Assembly: GCF_015841355.1 (NCBI RefSeq)
Contig: NZ_CP064908.1
Location: forward strand, 2,356,001-2,420,000
Direction of reading: 5' to 3'
Origin: Synechococcus sp. CBW1107
GTDB taxonomy: Bacteria > Cyanobacteriota > Cyanobacteriia > PCC-6307 > Cyanobiaceae
DNA length: 64,000 bases
The notes below the pieces were generated by a model. That model saw only the letters and a list, made by a program, of their open reading frames with translations, ran no database searches and was not told the DNA's origin. This document shows positions 13,933 to 21,785 of this stretch, piece by piece. The position numbers were made by a program, and so were the translations under genes. The number at the start of each line of letters is the position of its first letter. The stretch's first letter is position 1.

Positions 13933-14964
13933 CTAGCGAGCCTTGATCACCCCCCCGAAGTCGCTCGCGATGATCAGGGCGGGAGTGCTGGCGGTGTCGA
14001 CGGTGAACCGGCGACTTTCGCTCTGGACGCTGCCGTCGGGATAGGCGAAGGTCACCACGCCTTCGAGGGTGACACTGGAGCCCTCCTGGCCGGTTTCGCG
14101 CAGGTCGGACACGCTCACCCGCTCGAACTGGTTGAAGAAGGCGGGATCGAACTGATCCGCCGCCGCTCCCCCGAAGAATTGGCGGGCCTGGTTGTAGGCC
14201 TTGCCGCTGAGGGCGGCGTACAGACCCTGAACGCTGGCGATGGCCTGGTCGGTGTTGGCGGCCGGCGGCTGCGGCGGAGTGGTTGGCTCGGGCTCCGGCA
14301 GGCTCGGTTCCCGGGGTGGCGTGACGGGCTTGGCGGTGGTCACGGCTGGCGCCGGGCTGGGCCTTGGGGTGGAGGGGCTCTCCAGGTTGCTGCGGGGGGG
14401 CTGCTGCAGCAGCATCACGGCCCCCACCAGGGCCACCGCCAGACCGCCCGTGAGGAAGGCAAGGACACCGAGCAGGGCATGGCTGCCTCCGCCTCGACTG
14501 GCCGGAACCTGCACGGATGGAGTGACTGGAGCGGGCATCGTCTTCACCACCGGCTTCACCGGAACTGACCTGGCCGGTCGGCGTGCTGCCGGACTGCGTG
14601 ACTCCGTGCTGGGCATGGGCATCGTGGCCGTCGGGGGGTCTGGGGCCTCCCTGGGTGGCAGGTCAAGCAGTCCTTCCACCACGCGCTCCATGCGTGTGCA
14701 GATGGCGGGATTGAAGACCTCCTCGAGTTCCTGCATCAGCCTGGGCAGCAACCGCGAGCCCGAGAGAGGCGGGCTCTGGCTGGCCGCACTGGTGAAGGCG
14801 GCCGAGAGCACCAGATGGCGCAGGGCTGGCAGCAGCTTGATCTGCTCCTCGCCGCAGAGGTCGCCGGCCAGCGCCTGCAGGCGGCGCCCCTCGGCGCCGC
14901 GGCCGTGCTGGAGATCGCTGAGCACCTGCTGCCTGAGGGCGGCTCCGAGCTGGTGGTCGTTCAT
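13933..14964 (-). CDS. Single-pass membrane protein with C-terminal IMS/ARC6-like domain
   Basis: A 343-residue protein with three parts. An N-terminal soluble helical region (1-100) is followed by a Pro/Ser-rich linker and one membrane helix (about 163-188, LLGVLAFLTGGLAVALVGAVMLL). After a second Pro/Thr-rich linker comes a C-terminal domain (about 238-343, from DQAIASVQGLYAALSGKAY to the end). This last part resembles the IMS domain (DUF4101) seen at the C-terminus of ARC6/Ftn2-type division proteins. It is the last gene of the kinase/phosphatase operon; its ATG overlaps the PP2C stop as ATGA. Domain calls are by eye and the role is an inference. Confidence 0.75.
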   Translation of the reverse strand: MNDHQLGAALRQQVLSDLQHGRGAEGRRLQALAGDLCGEEQIKLLPALRHLVLSAAFTSAASQSPPLSGSRLLPRLMQELEEVFNPAICTRMERVVEGLLDLPPREAPDPPTATMPMPSTESRSPAARRPARSVPVKPVVKTMPAPVTPSVQVPASRGGGSHALLGVLAFLTGGLAVALVGAVMLLQQPPRSNLESPSTPRPSPAPAVTTAKPVTPPREPSLPEPEPTTPPQPPAANTDQAIASVQGLYAALSGKAYNQARQFFGGAAADQFDPAFFNQFERVSVSDLRETGQEGSSVTLEGVVTFAYPDGSVQSESRRFTVDTASTPALIIASDFGGVIKAR

Positions 14965-16241
14965 CGGCGGGCGGGGAGATCAGGGATGGTCGGGGGTTGC
15001 CACTGCTGCTGCAGGGCAGCCGCGAGGAGCGGGCAGAGGCTGAGGGCCCCGAGGGCCTCCCCTTGCACCATCCCACCAGTGGCGGGATCGAAGCTGCTGG
15101 CGATCAGGGCCCCGAGGGGATCCAGATCGGCTCCGCGCAACAGCGGTGCTGCCGCCAGGCGCCCCTGGCGCAGCCCAGTGAACTGGCTGCGCCGGCTGCT
15201 GAGGGTGCCGGCGATGGCGCCGGCGGGGCCCTGGCAGAGCTGGTCGATCTGGCGTCGCACGGCAGCCGCCGGCGGTGACGGCAGGCTCCGCTGCTGCAGC
15301 CAGTACCAGCCCGCCCCGAGGCCGGTGCTGGCCACCAGCAAGGCCCCGAACAGGAGGGGTCTCCGAGCCGGCAAGGGGCTGGCCTTCATGGATGGATCGA
15401 AAGCGGGTGTCACCTCGCAGGGGGGGGAGAAACTGCCGTGCAGGGCCATCGCCACCGACACGTCGTCTCCGCTGCCCTCGCTGGTGATCTGATCCAGGTT
15501 CGCGCACAGCACTTCGCTGGCCCCGGCGGCGGGGGTGGCCATCAGGTGAGCGGCGAGCACAAGGAAGTCCGCGTCGGTGGCGCACGACTTGCGGATGCCA
15601 TCGGTGCTCAGCAGCAGGCCGAAGCTGGCTTCCGGGGGGCTGATCGGCTCCAGCCCGCTGCGGAACAGCTGGGCGGCCTCCTCCAGGCAGAGGCTGCCTG
15701 TGGCCTCACCGCCGCCGACTGCAGCCTCTTCCTCGCTCAGCAGTGCCCCCTGTCCATCGGCGTCCACCCGCACCAGATCCCAGTCCCCCAGACCGGTGTA
15801 ACCCCACCAGCGGGGGGCCATCACCACCACGCCCAGGGTGGTTCCATAAAGCCGTGACACCTCGGCCTCCGAGTCCATCGACTGCTGCTGCCCGTGCTGC
15901 CGTACCCGTGCCAGCCAGCGGCTGTGGATCCGTTCGGGCAGCTCCGCGCCCAGCCAGTGGGCCCAGGCATCGAGCCCCGGGGCCTGTGTGCCCTGCAGCG
16001 ACCAGAGGCTCAGCTGCTCCTCCACCGCCAGCAGCGCCTGTTCACAGGCCAGGGCGCTGCCCACGTCGCTGAAGGGATAGTGCTCACCTCCATGGCCATC
16101 GGCCACAGCCATCACCTCAACGGGCTGGCCGTCGCGACTGCGGCAGCGGGCGACGGCGACCGCGTCCTGGCAGGAGCGGCCCTTTCGCTGGTGAGCCGCA
16201 CCGACGCGCCGGGCCTGCAGCGGCGGCCTCCAGCCGCTCAC
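14961..16241 (-). CDS. PP2C-type Ser/Thr phosphatase with transmembrane anchor
   Basis: A 426-residue protein. The N-terminal PP2C domain (about 1-265) has the metal motif VADGHGGEHY near residues 46-55, LYGTTLGVVV, STDGIRKS and the late metal Asp in GSGDDVSVAMA. One hydrophobic segment (about 290-315, LLFGALLVASTGLGAGWYWL) anchors it, followed by an extracytoplasmic tail of about 110 residues with no recognised domain. The GTG start overlaps the vWA stop as GTGA; reading further upstream gives unconserved Arg/Gly-rich sequence. It should reverse phosphorylation made by the operon's kinase. Confidence 0.9.
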   Translation of the reverse strand: MSGWRPPLQARRVGAAHQRKGRSCQDAVAVARCRSRDGQPVEVMAVADGHGGEHYPFSDVGSALACEQALLAVEEQLSLWSLQGTQAPGLDAWAHWLGAELPERIHSRWLARVRQHGQQQSMDSEAEVSRLYGTTLGVVVMAPRWWGYTGLGDWDLVRVDADGQGALLSEEEAAVGGGEATGSLCLEEAAQLFRSGLEPISPPEASFGLLLSTDGIRKSCATDADFLVLAAHLMATPAAGASEVLCANLDQITSEGSGDDVSVAMALHGSFSPPCEVTPAFDPSMKASPLPARRPLLFGALLVASTGLGAGWYWLQQRSLPSPPAAAVRRQIDQLCQGPAGAIAGTLSSRRSQFTGLRQGRLAAAPLLRGADLDPLGALIASSFDPATGGMVQGEALGALSLCPLLAAALQQQWQPPTIPDLPARR

Positions 16242-17020
16242 CACACCAGGGGACCGACGTCGTCGGTGGGATCCATCAGGGTGGGAGGCAGATCCGGCAG
16301 GGGGATGTTGGCCTGGGGCCCCAGACCCGCCATGCGGCTGGCCGGCATCGAGGCGGCGCCCACCACGGCGGTGGAGGCCCACTGGATGTACTGGGCCAGG
16401 GAGGTGGCGTTGCTGGCCTGCAGGGGCCGGCGAGGCGAGCGGCCCGAGCGGTGCAGGGGCGTCTTCCCGCTGGCGCCTGGGATTTCCCCGGAGGGAAGCC
16501 CACCGCAGGGATCGCTGCCGATGAACTGCTGCAACACGTCGGTGTCGGCGTCGTGGCCCATGGCGATCGCCAGGCGCACCGCCTTCTGGGCCCAGGGCTG
16601 ACGCATCAGGCTGGCCAGGCCGGCATCGAAGTCGTCAGTGGGCTGGCCGTCGGAGATCAGCACCAGCACAGGCGGCAGCGCCCTCTCCTCCATCGGGGGG
16701 GACCGCAGCACCGCCGCCACCAGCTCCAGCGCTTCGCCCATGGCCGTGATGCCGCCGGCCTGCAGATCCAGCCACTGCAGCCGCTCCACCTCCGTGGGCT
16801 CCTCCAGGTGCCAGGCGGCCCGGTCGGCGAAACTCACGGCCCGCACCAGCACACGCGCCTCGGGGTTCTGGCGGGCCACCGCGGCCATCCCCGGCAGCGA
16901 TTGACGAATCGCCTGGTTCAGGGCCTGGATCTTGCCCTGGGCCGCCATGGAGCCGGAGCAATCGCAGATGTAGATGAAATGCAGGGGTCGGTTGGCGAGC
17001 CTGACGTTGGGGAAGGGCAT
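16238..17020 (-). CDS. vWA domain protein, TerY-like
   Basis: A 260-residue protein with a von Willebrand A domain over about residues 12-190. The MIDAS metal site is complete by eye: D20-C-S22-G-S24 in CDCSGSM, a Thr in GGITAMGEAL, and Asp in ISDGQPTDD. The tail (190-260) is Pro/Ala-rich. It sits between a protein kinase and a PP2C phosphatase, the same three families as the TerY-phosphatase-kinase triad known from tellurite/stress systems. In such triads the vWA protein is thought to act as a metal-dependent scaffold. Confidence 0.9.
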   Translation of the reverse strand: MPFPNVRLANRPLHFIYICDCSGSMAAQGKIQALNQAIRQSLPGMAAVARQNPEARVLVRAVSFADRAAWHLEEPTEVERLQWLDLQAGGITAMGEALELVAAVLRSPPMEERALPPVLVLISDGQPTDDFDAGLASLMRQPWAQKAVRLAIAMGHDADTDVLQQFIGSDPCGGLPSGEIPGASGKTPLHRSGRSPRRPLQASNATSLAQYIQWASTAVVGAASMPASRMAGLGPQANIPLPDLPPTLMDPTDDVGPLVW

Positions 17021-17043
17021 CGGATCCGGGCGCGTGAAGAGGC

Positions 17044-18381
17044 TCAGGTGGGCAGCTCGACCGCTCCGGCCTGTGTGGTCAGCCGCACCAGTGGCGCGAG
17101 ATTACAGGCTTGTCCAGACTCCACCACCACCACCCGGTTGCCGGCCCTGAGCTCGGCCTGCCAGGCCTGGCCGCTGAGGTTGCGCAGCCCGAGCAGGGAG
17201 CCATCGCTCGGATGGGCCTCCACCCGGGCCAGCGGCTGATCCAGCCTCAGGGGCAGCAGGCGGTCGAAGTGATGGGGATGCAGCTCGTTGCCGGCTGCCG
17301 CCGTCACCTGGCCGTGGGGCAGCCGCAGCCTTGTGGGCGGCGGTATGGGGCAGCCGCAGCTCCAGCACAAGGGACCTGGATCGCTCGCTGCCGGAAAGGT
17401 TTCCTGGCCGCAGTGGCCGCAGAGCTGACGCTGGTCGAGGGCCTCGGCCAGGGCGGCCATCCACTGGCCGGTGAGTGCCCGGCGCTGGGGCGCGTGCAGG
17501 CCGGCGCAGAAGGTCTGCTCGAACAGCCGCTTGATCGGCTCGGGATAGATCGGCCAGGTGATCAGGGCCGCGGCGTGCTCGATCGGGTCGGGACGGTTGC
17601 TCGGATTTGTGGGATCGAAGATGAACAGCGGGTCTTCGCCGTAGAGCCGGCGCCGGGCGGGTTCATCCAGGCAGCGGATCTCCAGTTCGCGGCGACCCCG
17701 CAGTGGGTCGTGACGGGTGAGCAGGCGGAAGATCAGCACCGCCAGGGAGAAGAGATCACTGTTGGCTCCCGGCCGGGCGATGCCCATCAGGATCTCCGGC
17801 GCCATGAACCCCGGGGTGCCCAGCACGCTGCCCAGATCCCGCCCATCCACATCCACGTTGTCGTTGTCGCAGATCAGGATGCGGCCGCTGGAGGGCTCGA
17901 GGAACAGATTGCCCAGGGAGATGTCCTTGTAACAGAGGCCCTTGAGGTGGAGGGCATGGAAGCCTTCAGCCAGGAAGAAGCAGGCCCGCAGCACCTGGAG
18001 CAGGCCGATGTCCAGGTGGCCGCCCACATGTTCATGGGCCCCCAAGAACCCCGGTGGGCGCAACTCCATCAGGTAGCCGAAGCCTGGTTCGCCAAGGCGC
18101 AGCAACGGCAAGGCACCAGGGCCGGGCGTCACCAGGGCCAGGGGCCAGAGGAAGGCCTCGCTGGGGGCCGTGGCGCGGATGCTCTCGCCCAGGCGCCGCT
18201 TCAGGTGGGGATCGCGGGCGATGCACGCTGGCAGATACCACTTCAGGGCCAGCCGCTCGCCGGCCACCTCCACCTCGAACACCTGGCCCTGGGTGCCGCC
18301 CCCGAGCCCGCGAAGCACCCGCAGCGGGCTGGAGATCCCCTCCAGGTCAAGACTGGCGCCTTCCGGCAGGATCCAGGTCAC
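17044..18381 (-). CDS. Atypical Ser/Thr protein kinase with zinc ribbon
   Basis: A 445-residue kinase from a GTG 19 bases after the FHA stop. The glycine loop GLGGGTQGQVFEV is near 25-37 and the Lys of ALKWY is K47. The catalytic loop reads YKDISLGN (D153, N158), lacking the usual HRD arginine. The DFG motif is replaced by DND (D172-174), and MAPEI follows. The acid residues needed for catalysis are present. After the kinase domain come a CGHC / CWSC zinc ribbon (about 335-365) and a small C-terminal beta-rich region ending in VVVVESGQACNL. This architecture fits the kinase of TerY-type triads. Confidence 0.87.
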   Translation of the reverse strand: MTWILPEGASLDLEGISSPLRVLRGLGGGTQGQVFEVEVAGERLALKWYLPACIARDPHLKRRLGESIRATAPSEAFLWPLALVTPGPGALPLLRLGEPGFGYLMELRPPGFLGAHEHVGGHLDIGLLQVLRACFFLAEGFHALHLKGLCYKDISLGNLFLEPSSGRILICDNDNVDVDGRDLGSVLGTPGFMAPEILMGIARPGANSDLFSLAVLIFRLLTRHDPLRGRRELEIRCLDEPARRRLYGEDPLFIFDPTNPSNRPDPIEHAAALITWPIYPEPIKRLFEQTFCAGLHAPQRRALTGQWMAALAEALDQRQLCGHCGQETFPAASDPGPLCWSCGCPIPPPTRLRLPHGQVTAAAGNELHPHHFDRLLPLRLDQPLARVEAHPSDGSLLGLRNLSGQAWQAELRAGNRVVVVESGQACNLAPLVRLTTQAGAVELPT

Positions 18382-18400
18382 GGAGGGCTGGCTTGGGGTC

Positions 18401-19141
18401 TCAGGACTCCAGACTCTGGCCGATGGCCTTGCGGATCCCGTTGCGGTGGGACAGGGCCGTGAGCCGGTTGGCGAAGCTGCGGCGCTGGGCGCGGCCATCA
18501 CGCAGCACCACGGTGAGGGTGTGCTCCTTGCGGGAACCCAGCAGGATCCAGCCGGCCAGGGCCGCCACTTCCAGGGGCCAGAACAGGAAAGGGAATGGCA
18601 GCAGCAGCAGCCCCCCCAGGCAAACCAGCAGCCACCAGCTGAAGATGTGGGGATGGCGGGGCAGGCTCTGCACGGTGGCCGAGCGGATCTGATCCAGGGC
18701 GATCTGCTGACCGCCGAAGTCGAGGCTGCTCACCACCGGCGCCACGGTTTTGGCCGCGGCCGCCACTGATTTGGCCGTGGCCACCACCGATTTGGCCGCT
18801 GGCTGGGCTGTGGCGGCGGGAGCCGGAGCGGCGAGTTCGAAGATCAGCACGGGACCGCTGAGTCCCAGCCGGATCTCGTCGCCATCGGCCAGGGGGCGGC
18901 ACTTCTGGAGTCGTTCCCCCTGCAGAAAGGTGCCATCGGCGCTCTGCCAGTCGCAGACCACCCAGCTCTGATGGCTGCTGGAGTGGCGGACCACGGCGTG
19001 ATGGGGTGAGAGCCCGGCTTGCTCAGGCATGCAGAGACGGTTGTTGCGCTCACGCCCGATGGTGAGGGGCCGTGCCGGATCGAGCCGGGCCACCTTGCCC
19101 GGCTGATCCCGCAACCGCAGCTGGGCTGCTGACGGGGTCAT
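18401..19141 (-). CDS. FHA-domain membrane protein
   Basis: A 246-residue protein. The N-terminal FHA domain (about 15-100) shows TIGRERNNRLCMPE, SPHHAVV, SADGTFLQGERL and DGDEIRLG, so it should bind phosphothreonine peptides. A linker with repeated AKSV/AKT units (about 114-136) follows, then a short beta segment, two hydrophobic stretches (about 158-195) and a basic tail. It is probably anchored by a hairpin with FHA in the cytoplasm. The ATG overlaps the preceding small membrane protein gene as ATGA. It is a natural reader for phosphorylation by the adjacent kinase. Confidence 0.88.
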   Translation of the reverse strand: MTPSAAQLRLRDQPGKVARLDPARPLTIGRERNNRLCMPEQAGLSPHHAVVRHSSSHQSWVVCDWQSADGTFLQGERLQKCRPLADGDEIRLGLSGPVLIFELAAPAPAATAQPAAKSVVATAKSVAAAAKTVAPVVSSLDFGGQQIALDQIRSATVQSLPRHPHIFSWWLLVCLGGLLLLPFPFLFWPLEVAALAGWILLGSRKEHTLTVVLRDGRAQRRSFANRLTALSHRNGIRKAIGQSLES

Positions 19142-19413
19142 GGGTGTCCGCGGCGGCGGCGCCACCACAGGCGCCAGTCGTCCTGGAGATCGCTCCACCA
19201 ACCGCCATCGCCCGTGCGCTGCGGCGTGACCCGGCCGGGGAAGAGCAGGGCCTTGCTGGCCAGCAGCAGGGCCACCAGCACCATGACCAGCAGAACCCAG
19301 CCCGGGATGGCCCCCACCCAGGTGGCGGCGAAGCTGGCCCTGATCGCATAGAGCCCGATCGTGATGGCCAGCCAGAGCCTGAAGGGCTCCCAGGGATCGC
19401 GCTGGCGCAGCAC
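19138..19413 (-). CDS. Small membrane protein, first gene of the FHA/kinase operon
   Basis: About 91 residues from the GTG at 19413 (product VLRQRDPWEPFRLW onward). Two hydrophobic helices are visible (about 11-32 and 36-58, the second being GWVLLVMVLVALLLASKALLF), followed by a Trp/Arg-rich tail, WWSDLQDDWRLWWRRRR. The frame stays open upstream, but that sequence runs into the divergent PBP gene and looks unconstrained. It overlaps the FHA gene by four bases. I do not recognise the family; an accessory or anchor protein is likely. Confidence 0.65.
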   Translation of the reverse strand: MLRQRDPWEPFRLWLAITIGLYAIRASFAATWVGAIPGWVLLVMVLVALLLASKALLFPGRVTPQRTGDGGWWSDLQDDWRLWWRRRRGHP

Positions 19414-19469
19414 GGGGCGGGGACATCGCTGCGCGTAGCGTATTCCCGGGCACGTCTGGTCCTCCCCGC
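19414..19469. promoter_or_regulatory. Divergent promoter region between FHA/kinase operon and FHA-PBP
   Basis: Only 56 bases separate the first codons of the minus-strand signalling operon and the plus-strand FHA-PBP gene, so both promoters must be compact and probably overlap each other. A TAGCGTAT element on the plus strand is a possible -10 for the PBP, but I cannot identify a convincing -35. Close pairing suggests joint control. Confidence 0.45.
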
Positions 19470-21785
19470 ATGGTCGAGCGCTCCGCTGCTGAGAGTGCCT
19501 GCGAGCCGGTCTCGGGATCCAGCACTGAGCCCCCTGCCGAGCCGCCACGGGGCGGTGGTCGTCGTGCGGCATGGCGGCGTTTTCTGACCGCCTGGAGCCG
19601 TGGCGGACCCGACGGACGCCCCGCCGCCATCCGCTCGGCCTGGGGCCAGCTGCTGGAGCGCCAGGCCGTGGCGGAGCTCTGGCTGGGGGAGCGGCGGATC
19701 AGCCGAACCGTGCTGAGGGAGGAGCGTTATCGCATCGGCCGCGATCCGACCTGTGAGTTGCCGATCGAGGCCGAGAGCCTCAGCCGCGTGCACGCGATTC
19801 TGGAGAAGCCGCGCCCCGGAGAGCGCGATTTCGCCCTCGAAGACTTCAACTCCGCCAACGGGCTCTTCCACCGCGACCGCCGCATCCGCGCCATTCGTCT
19901 GCGCCACGGCGATCAGGTGCAGCTGGGTTCGCCCCTCAAGGGCTCGGCTCCGCGCCTGCGTTATCTGCACCCCCGCAGCCCGCTGGAGCAGGCGGTGCAC
20001 CTGCTGGGGCTGGGCAGTCTGCTGGGGTCGGGGCTGTTGGTGGGGGGACTGCTGCTGGCCTCCACCGTCGGCGGCGGTTCCCGGATTCGCCTGATCTCAG
20101 GCCCGGTGAAGATCGTTTCGGCTTCGGGGCAGCAGATCGACGCCAGGGAGGGCTCCGCCACGGCCCTGCCTTCCCTGCAGGCCTATCCCCTGCACCTGCG
20201 CCAGGCGCTGCTGGCCTCGGAGGAGGCGCGCTTCGGCTGGAACAGCGGCATCGACCTGTTCGGCACCCTGCGCTCGGTTCTGCTGGGCAGCGGCGGTGGC
20301 AGCGGTCTCACCCAGCAGGTGGCCCGCATCTACTACCCCGAAGTGGGCACCGACTACAGCCTCAGCCGCAAGCTGCGGGAGTTGTGGGTGGCCCTGCAGC
20401 TGGAGGTGGGCTACAGCAAGAACCAGATCCTGAAAATGTATCTCGACCGGGCCCACCTGGGCCTCGGCACCGATGGCTTCGAGCAGGCGTCCAGGCTCTA
20501 CTTCCGCAAGTCGGCCAGTGACCTGGACGTGGGTCAGGCGGCCTTCCTGGTGGGTCTGCTGCCCAGTCCCAACGGGTACAGCCCCTGCAATGTCAAGGAC
20601 CCCACCGCAGGCCGCGAGCGCCGCGATCTGGTGCTCAAGCTCATGCACGAACAGGGGTACCTGCGCGATCAGCAGCTGATCGATGCTCTACGGCGTCCCC
20701 TCAACATCGATCCCTCGGCCTGCCGCGAGTCCAGCTTCTCCAGCTATCCCTTCTTCAGCGACTACGTGCTCGGGGAACTGGAGGGCACCCGCTTCGGCCT
20801 CAATCTCTCGGAGAAGGCTTCAGGCGGCAATTACTACGTGGTGAGCACGATCGATCCGACGCTGCAGCGGCTCGCCCAGCAGCAGTTGCAGCGCTTCCTG
20901 GAGGGGCCGGCCGCGCGGGTGGGCCTCACCCAGGGTGCCCTGATCTCCCTTGATTTCCGCAGCGGCAAGATCCTGGCCTATGTCGGCGGCGGCGACTATT
21001 CCCGCTCCAGCTTCGACCGGGTCCAGGCCATGCGTCAGCCCGGCTCCACCTTCAAGCTCTTCCCCTACCTGGCGGCGCTCGAGGCCGGCACCAGGCCCGA
21101 CCAGCTCATCTCCTGCGCCCCCCTGGCCTATGTGGCGGGCTGCCGCCATGGAGCTGCAGGGGGCAGCGTCAGCGTGGCCAGGGGCTTCGCCGATTCCGAG
21201 AACGTTGTGGCTCTGCGCCTGGCGGAGATCGCGGGCCTGAAACAGGTGGTGCGCAAAGCCCGCCAGCTGGGACTCAGCACCCCCCTCGACCCCGACTTCA
21301 ACACCATGCTCGGCGGCCGTGAAACCCTGCTGTACGAGATGGCCCGGGCCTATGCCGTGGTGGCCAACGGGGGTCGCAGCGTACCGATGCATGGCGTGAG
21401 CAGGATCTACGACCTGGGCATCTGCCGCTCGATCTACAGCCTTGCCAGCTGCCCGGAGCGGGGGGTGACGACCCCCATCGGTGAGCAGCCTCGCCAGCTG
21501 CTTCGTGGGGAGGATGCTGCCGTGATGGACGCTCTGCTGGCGGAGGTGGTGCGCAGCGGCACGGGACGGGCCGCCGCGGTCGTGGCCGATGCCCGCGGCA
21601 AGACCGGCACCACCGACAACGGTGTGGATGTGCTCTTCATCGGGTACTCCCCGGCGCTGGAGATCCTCACCGCCGTCTGGATGGGCAACGACGACAACCG
21701 ACCGGCGCAGGCGGCCAGCGGTGCCCTGGTGGCCGAGTTCTGGGGGCGGTACATGGCCGCGATCGGGTCAGGACGCCAGACCTGA
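19470..21785 (+). CDS. Class A penicillin-binding protein with N-terminal FHA domain
   Basis: A 771-residue bifunctional peptidoglycan synthase. Cytoplasmic N-terminus: FHA domain at about 70-160 (YRIGRDP, SLSRVHA, FNSANGLFHRDR). One membrane helix lies at about 176-199. The GT51 glycosyltransferase domain (220-400) has SEEARFGWNSGID with E251, GSGLTQQVAR and KMYLDRAHLGLG. The transpeptidase domain (450-760) has GSTFK with catalytic S526, SEN at 576-578 and KTG at 711-713. All catalytic motifs are present. The FHA fusion implies recruitment or control through a phosphothreonine partner; the divergent kinase operon is the obvious candidate. Confidence 0.93.
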   Translation: MVERSAAESACEPVSGSSTEPPAEPPRGGGRRAAWRRFLTAWSRGGPDGRPAAIRSAWGQLLERQAVAELWLGERRISRTVLREERYRIGRDPTCELPIEAESLSRVHAILEKPRPGERDFALEDFNSANGLFHRDRRIRAIRLRHGDQVQLGSPLKGSAPRLRYLHPRSPLEQAVHLLGLGSLLGSGLLVGGLLLASTVGGGSRIRLISGPVKIVSASGQQIDAREGSATALPSLQAYPLHLRQALLASEEARFGWNSGIDLFGTLRSVLLGSGGGSGLTQQVARIYYPEVGTDYSLSRKLRELWVALQLEVGYSKNQILKMYLDRAHLGLGTDGFEQASRLYFRKSASDLDVGQAAFLVGLLPSPNGYSPCNVKDPTAGRERRDLVLKLMHEQGYLRDQQLIDALRRPLNIDPSACRESSFSSYPFFSDYVLGELEGTRFGLNLSEKASGGNYYVVSTIDPTLQRLAQQQLQRFLEGPAARVGLTQGALISLDFRSGKILAYVGGGDYSRSSFDRVQAMRQPGSTFKLFPYLAALEAGTRPDQLISCAPLAYVAGCRHGAAGGSVSVARGFADSENVVALRLAEIAGLKQVVRKARQLGLSTPLDPDFNTMLGGRETLLYEMARAYAVVANGGRSVPMHGVSRIYDLGICRSIYSLASCPERGVTTPIGEQPRQLLRGEDAAVMDALLAEVVRSGTGRAAAVVADARGKTGTTDNGVDVLFIGYSPALEILTAVWMGNDDNRPAQAASGALVAEFWGRYMAAIGSGRQT

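Follow-up and report, generated by a model that had tools for sequence, protein, structure and literature searches.

The locus at positions 13933-21785 of the window, i.e., of the whole 64,000-nucleotide stretch of DNA analyzed here, is a real, strongly conserved, and lineage-specific signalling-synthase unit built from known parts. It joins a kinase-vWA-PP2C triad to a class A PBP carrying an FHA domain; both were already known separately, and what is new is their dedicated, co-inherited pairing, found only in Cyanobiaceae. The coupling of Ser/Thr phosphorylation to peptidoglycan synthesis in cyanobacteria is poorly known, and this neighbourhood suggests that wall synthesis is switched by protein phosphorylation in Cyanobiaceae. 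The locus is probably a co-inherited phospho-signalling unit with the FHA-class A PBP as its dedicated output, and phospho-control over this wall synthase is plausible from the sequences.

The host genome, a 3.2-Mb single contig, is closely related to Synechococcus WH 5701 and to Cyanobium-like strains. ORF coordinates and Pfam domains confirmed the layout given in a preliminary description of this DNA, that is, six genes on the minus strand and a divergent one on the plus strand, located 56 bases away and encoding an FHA-tagged class A PBP. The latter, denoted G (19470-21785, plus strand), contains a cytoplasmic FHA domain (residues 87-153; Pfam E-value 2e-14) and a TM segment (~178-196), together with the transglycosylase (Transgly, 1.6e-40) and transpeptidase (Transpeptidase, 6.3e-21) domains. 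The first gene of the minus-strand operon is F (19138-19413), for which the sequence and TM prediction indicated a small hydrophobic membrane protein of 91 aa with a GTG start. It is followed by E (18401-19141), which has an FHA domain (2.5e-13) and a membrane domain weakly resembling DUF6232, and by D (17044-18381), a soluble Hanks-type kinase (Pkinase, 3.7e-13) with a GTG start, a zinc-ribbon-like CxxC..CxxC segment, and a C-terminal beta-rich domain. Gene C (16238-17020) encodes a soluble vWA protein with a complete MIDAS (VWA, 3.6e-6), and B (14961-16241), also with a GTG start, encodes an N-terminal PP2C phosphatase (PP2C_2, 1.9e-23) followed by a TM segment and a two-cysteine C-terminal tail. 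All these Pfam matches passed the cut-offs. The last gene, A (13933-14964), encodes a helical N-terminal domain, a TM segment (163-186), a proline-rich linker, and an NTF2-like C-terminal domain recognized with AlphaFold2 and Foldseek. Some lineages lack this gene in the operon, and a transaldolase-like gene occupies its place at L076, L077, L078, and their relatives.

The ATGA and GTGA overlaps that had been ascribed to most of the genes were found at three of the five junctions in the window, namely F/E (ATGA), C/B (GTGA), and B/A (ATGA), whereas E/D and D/C are separated by gaps of +19 and +23 bp. Among the relatives, a value of -4 is frequent at E/D as well, and 54 of 55 loci have an F/E overlap of 1-4 bp and 45 of 51 a C/B overlap of 1-7 bp. 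Such overlapping junctions in most relatives imply a single operon. The divergent genes F and G are separated by a 56-bp spacer (19414-19469), in which a search detected no sigma-70 consensus promoter. A short inverted repeat in this spacer, CGCTACGCGCAGCG, is largely kept in an alignment of nine close relatives and is a possible operator.

Conservation of the linkage was evaluated by searching 400 Cyanobiaceae genomes with kinase D and with PBP G, where an identity of about 56% or more defined an orthologue of the latter. Kinase D was found in 72 genomes, distributed over 8 of the 59 genera, and PBP G in 71; 70 genomes have both, two have the kinase only, one has the PBP only, and 327 have neither. 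The two kinase-only genomes are Prochlorococcus-like (genus g6), and the PBP-only genome is 78% complete. The kinase and PBP genes are 1.1-2.7 kb apart in every genome that holds both on one contig, and they are on separate contigs in one genome consisting of about 570 contigs. The core order was intact in 28 of the 29 loci viewed at about 9-17 kb, the exception being the Prochlorococcus locus L074, and the G-F-E-D-C-B order is kept in several genera at kinase identities of about 54-97%. In a phylum-wide sample, full-length matches to kinase D above 50% identity were confined to Cyanobiaceae, all others being 41% or less. The preliminary description had staked its reading on a search for this gene order in related genomes, and the linkage held in 70 genomes, with the order kept across differing flanks. 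The conservation of the kinase-PBP linkage far exceeds chance.

The arrangement might instead be a functionless neighbourhood, in which an ancestral juxtaposition was kept by vertical descent and by a shared divergent promoter region. Its flanks are syntenic too in many genomes, most of which have the locus next to atpB/atpE and the h13218/HAD/pepP genes, a conserved housekeeping position, and the distance correlations with flanking-gene control are high. The linkage nevertheless survives differing flanks, as at L075, L080, L081, L088, and L090, where atpB/atpE and the pepP side are missing while the core order is retained. The joint gain and loss evident from the genome counts and the strict constraint on the FHA domain of the PBP also argue against this explanation, which we regard as the least probable of those considered. 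Once shared ancestry was accounted for, the agreement between the gene-tree distances of D and G was only moderate (partial r about 0.5), and this correlation was set aside as a proof of co-evolution. Two entries of the data set are peculiar. In genome G405, a frameshift or sequencing error has split kinase D across two frames (L088:7746-9070), and the record titled MAG Bifidobacterium breve (L134) has a copy of the Cyanobiaceae-type locus, which is probably a mislabelled or contaminated bin.

The enzymes of the triad look intact. The Gly-loop, K47, D153, N158, D172, and the APE motif of kinase D were invariant in 19 family sequences. An alignment of 32 sequences, reaching Chloroflexota, Methylococcales, and other cyanobacteria, showed invariance of K47, D153, N158, D172, and E196 together with the four cysteines C321, C324, C339, and C342. 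The AlphaFold2 model of this protein (pLDDT 92, pTM 0.92) matched protein kinases in a structure search, and no TM segment was predicted. A degenerate FHA domain was considered for the C-terminal beta-rich domain and rejected, as the profile-profile probability was 0.5% and the Foldseek list was dominated by kinase-domain matches. For the vWA protein C, residues D20, S22, S24, T92, and D124 were invariant in 19 sequences. Its C-terminal Trp (W260) is also invariant, including in Prochloron, Trichodesmium, and Crenothrix, and may be part of a docking tail. The metal-site residues of PP2C B (D26, D48, G49, D214, D259, and D260) were likewise invariant, so that both B and D would be expected to be active enzymes. 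Almost every PBP-linked locus has a PP2C with one TM segment followed by the two-cysteine tail. The two Prochlorococcus triads, one of which is on a short contig, have a PP2C of 287-295 aa with neither the TM segment nor the tail, and they lack G, F, and E.

On the side of the synthase, G possesses the FHA domain, TM segment, transglycosylase, and transpeptidase with intact motifs; Glu251 and Glu304 of the transglycosylase, SxxK (526-529), SxN (576-578), and KTGT (711-714) were invariant in 13 sequences. All 52 sequences compared had identical FHA residues at G90, R91, S105, R106, H108, N130, and G131. Of 57 E sequences, 26 kept all four canonical residues (R, S, H, and N) and 44 kept R, S, and H. 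The invariance of these positions in G, while the FHA domain of E drifts, indicates that it is the synthase-borne reader that selection maintains. Of the two FHA readers proposed previously, G hence retains its phosphothreonine-binding residues throughout, whereas E has lost part of them in about half of its orthologues and probably does not act as a strict phospho-reader in every lineage. The resemblance of its membrane domain to DUF6232 was detected in 10 of 16 E orthologues (best E-value 0.0039). The host genome contains three FHA domains, two at this locus and one on a paralogous FHA-PBP, and two detectable Hanks kinases, which leaves a short list of possible partners. Protein A had been called an IMS/ARC6-like membrane protein; this label was abandoned, as Pfam IMS (PF13355) was absent among the matches at E <= 1 for all 22 orthologues, and the C-terminal domain of its AlphaFold2 model matched only the generic fold of NTF2-like structures in Foldseek (best E 3.7e-3).

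An FHA-tagged class A PBP is not peculiar to this locus. Paralogous FHA-class A PBPs (about 35-45% identity) were found in nearly all other class members sampled, and this pan-cyanobacterial protein shares with G the order FHA-TM-transglycosylase-transpeptidase. The host genome also has one (G000:C1:2588092-2590191), which is about 43% identical to G. No kinase, vWA, or PP2C gene was recognized among its neighbours examined. In this second region (L196:7033-10823; G000:C1 about 2588032-2591822), a DUF697 GTPase gene comes directly after the paralogue. The paralogue is present in family members without kinase D, showing that carrying an FHA domain does not in itself tie a PBP to this kinase.

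The working model is a writer/eraser/reader circuit in which the reader is inside the synthase. The soluble kinase D would write phosphothreonine and the membrane PP2C B would remove it, setting the phosphorylation of a local partner, and the vWA protein C may act as a scaffold that binds D and/or B through its MIDAS. The cytoplasmic FHA domain of G would dock onto a phosphothreonine of a partner, which may be D, A, B, E, or F, and this docking may recruit or activate the synthase. Two parts that the predicted topology places on the other side of the membrane, the two-cysteine tail of B and the NTF2-like domain in A, may feed the envelope status into the phosphatase/kinase balance, and the proposed role of E and F is that of assembly factors in the membrane. 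That the FHA domain of G switches a second, lineage-specific class A PBP on or off in this manner seems to us about equally likely to be right or wrong. The initial prediction of phospho-dependent control over wall synthesis is partly supported: the linkage and the conserved active-site and binding residues are in its favour, and the FHA-PBP found elsewhere, the known and widespread triad, the drifting reader E, and the lost IMS/ARC6 assignment are points of correction. PBP-less triads, which occur in Prochlorococcus and in other phyla, count against the proposed mechanism.

The logic of the circuit has parallels in other systems. The T6SS threonine phosphorylation pathway PpkA-PppA-Fha brings a kinase, a PP2C, and an FHA reader together at a membrane machine, and the locus is alike in this respect except that its machine is a PBP. 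The T6SS sheath protein VipB (PF05943) was found in none of eight genomes. The locus also resembles the wall control by PknB/StkP-type kinases (PMC6213207) in having a Ser/Thr kinase that would act on wall synthases and FHA readers. Those kinases, however, have a TM segment and extracellular PASTA domains, whereas kinase D has no TM segment and no PASTA match in Pfam, and the reader domain at the locus belongs to the synthase itself. No paper on an FHA-PBP or on a triad-PBP linkage was found in the open-access literature, subscription journals being outside the scope of this search, in line with the early claim that the connection of the triad to wall synthesis in a cyanobacterium was undescribed. 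An FHA reader built into the synthase would be a mode of wall control absent from that literature. The whole putative circuit is contained in one small picocyanobacterial operon (e.g., in the relatives of Synechococcus WH 5701), and, for the widespread kinase-vWA-PP2C triad, the locus offers a clue to an output that is otherwise obscure. With an unlinked FHA-PBP paralogue in the host genome and PBP-less triads in Prochlorococcus for comparison, the function of an FHA domain on wall synthases is directly testable.

The triad had been described as known from Ter-type systems, and adjacent homologues were indeed found on Ter plasmids. Homologous kinase, vWA, and PP2C genes are adjacent in both cases, the catalytic and MIDAS residues being intact at the Cyanobiaceae locus, and kinase D is 31% identical over residues 128-345 to the kinase of the TerY/vWA-PP2C-kinase cluster on enterobacterial plasmids. 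The Cyanobiaceae locus differs from this cluster by the addition of the FHA proteins and the PBP. TerD (PF02342), which was detected in control genomes, was absent from all eight family genomes searched. A kinase with a zinc ribbon and a beta-rich domain also adjoins a PP2C and a standalone vWA protein in GAP1-N2 conflict systems (PMC7159879). These share the three components with the locus, which is additionally linked to a wall synthase and in which no GAP1-N2 GTPase component was recognized among the genes. Such relatives, together with a low-level resemblance of kinase D to the kinases of defence and Ter systems, would fit an anti-phage or conflict system, in which infection would be sensed by the triad together with the FHA proteins and answered by the PBP with a change in the wall. 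PADLOC gave no confident component match (generic kinase matches and a weak TerY at 0.0016), and most genomes hold the locus at the housekeeping position rather than in a variable island. On these grounds, along with the lack of TerD, this defence role was rejected as highly improbable.

Relatives of the kinase adjoin vWA and PP2C genes in Klebsiella Ter clusters, Prevotella, Chloroflexota, Methylococcales, and other cyanobacteria. Outside Cyanobiaceae, full-length matches to kinase D were found only in another subfamily (38-43%), and no FHA gene was detected near the kinase in 32 loci with a home-made FHA profile, some of these loci being short. The very different neighbours of the triad, which include plasmid Ter genes and, at distances of up to about 8 kb in Prochlorococcus sp. 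MIT 0701, an FHA-ABC transporter together with trypsin-TPR proteins, are consistent with a general envelope stress response. The PBP would then be one of several outputs, and its FHA domain would mainly anchor it to the complex rather than control catalysis; the predicted extracytoplasmic domains in A and B also fit this explanation. Since the PBP is the only constant enzyme partner in Cyanobiaceae outside Prochlorococcus (70 genomes), we regard a general response as rather unlikely and prefer the PBP as the dedicated output. The PBP-less triad of MIT 0701 (L148:2852-14705) is accompanied by a two-FHA ABC-2 transporter, the trypsin-TPR proteins, and a DUF2939 protein, and this transporter is possibly a second FHA-tagged partner machine of the triad, as seen in one genome. 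In Chloroflexota, two family kinases are arranged in tandem at L175, L176, L177, L178, and L186, the second of which is included in a much longer reading frame.
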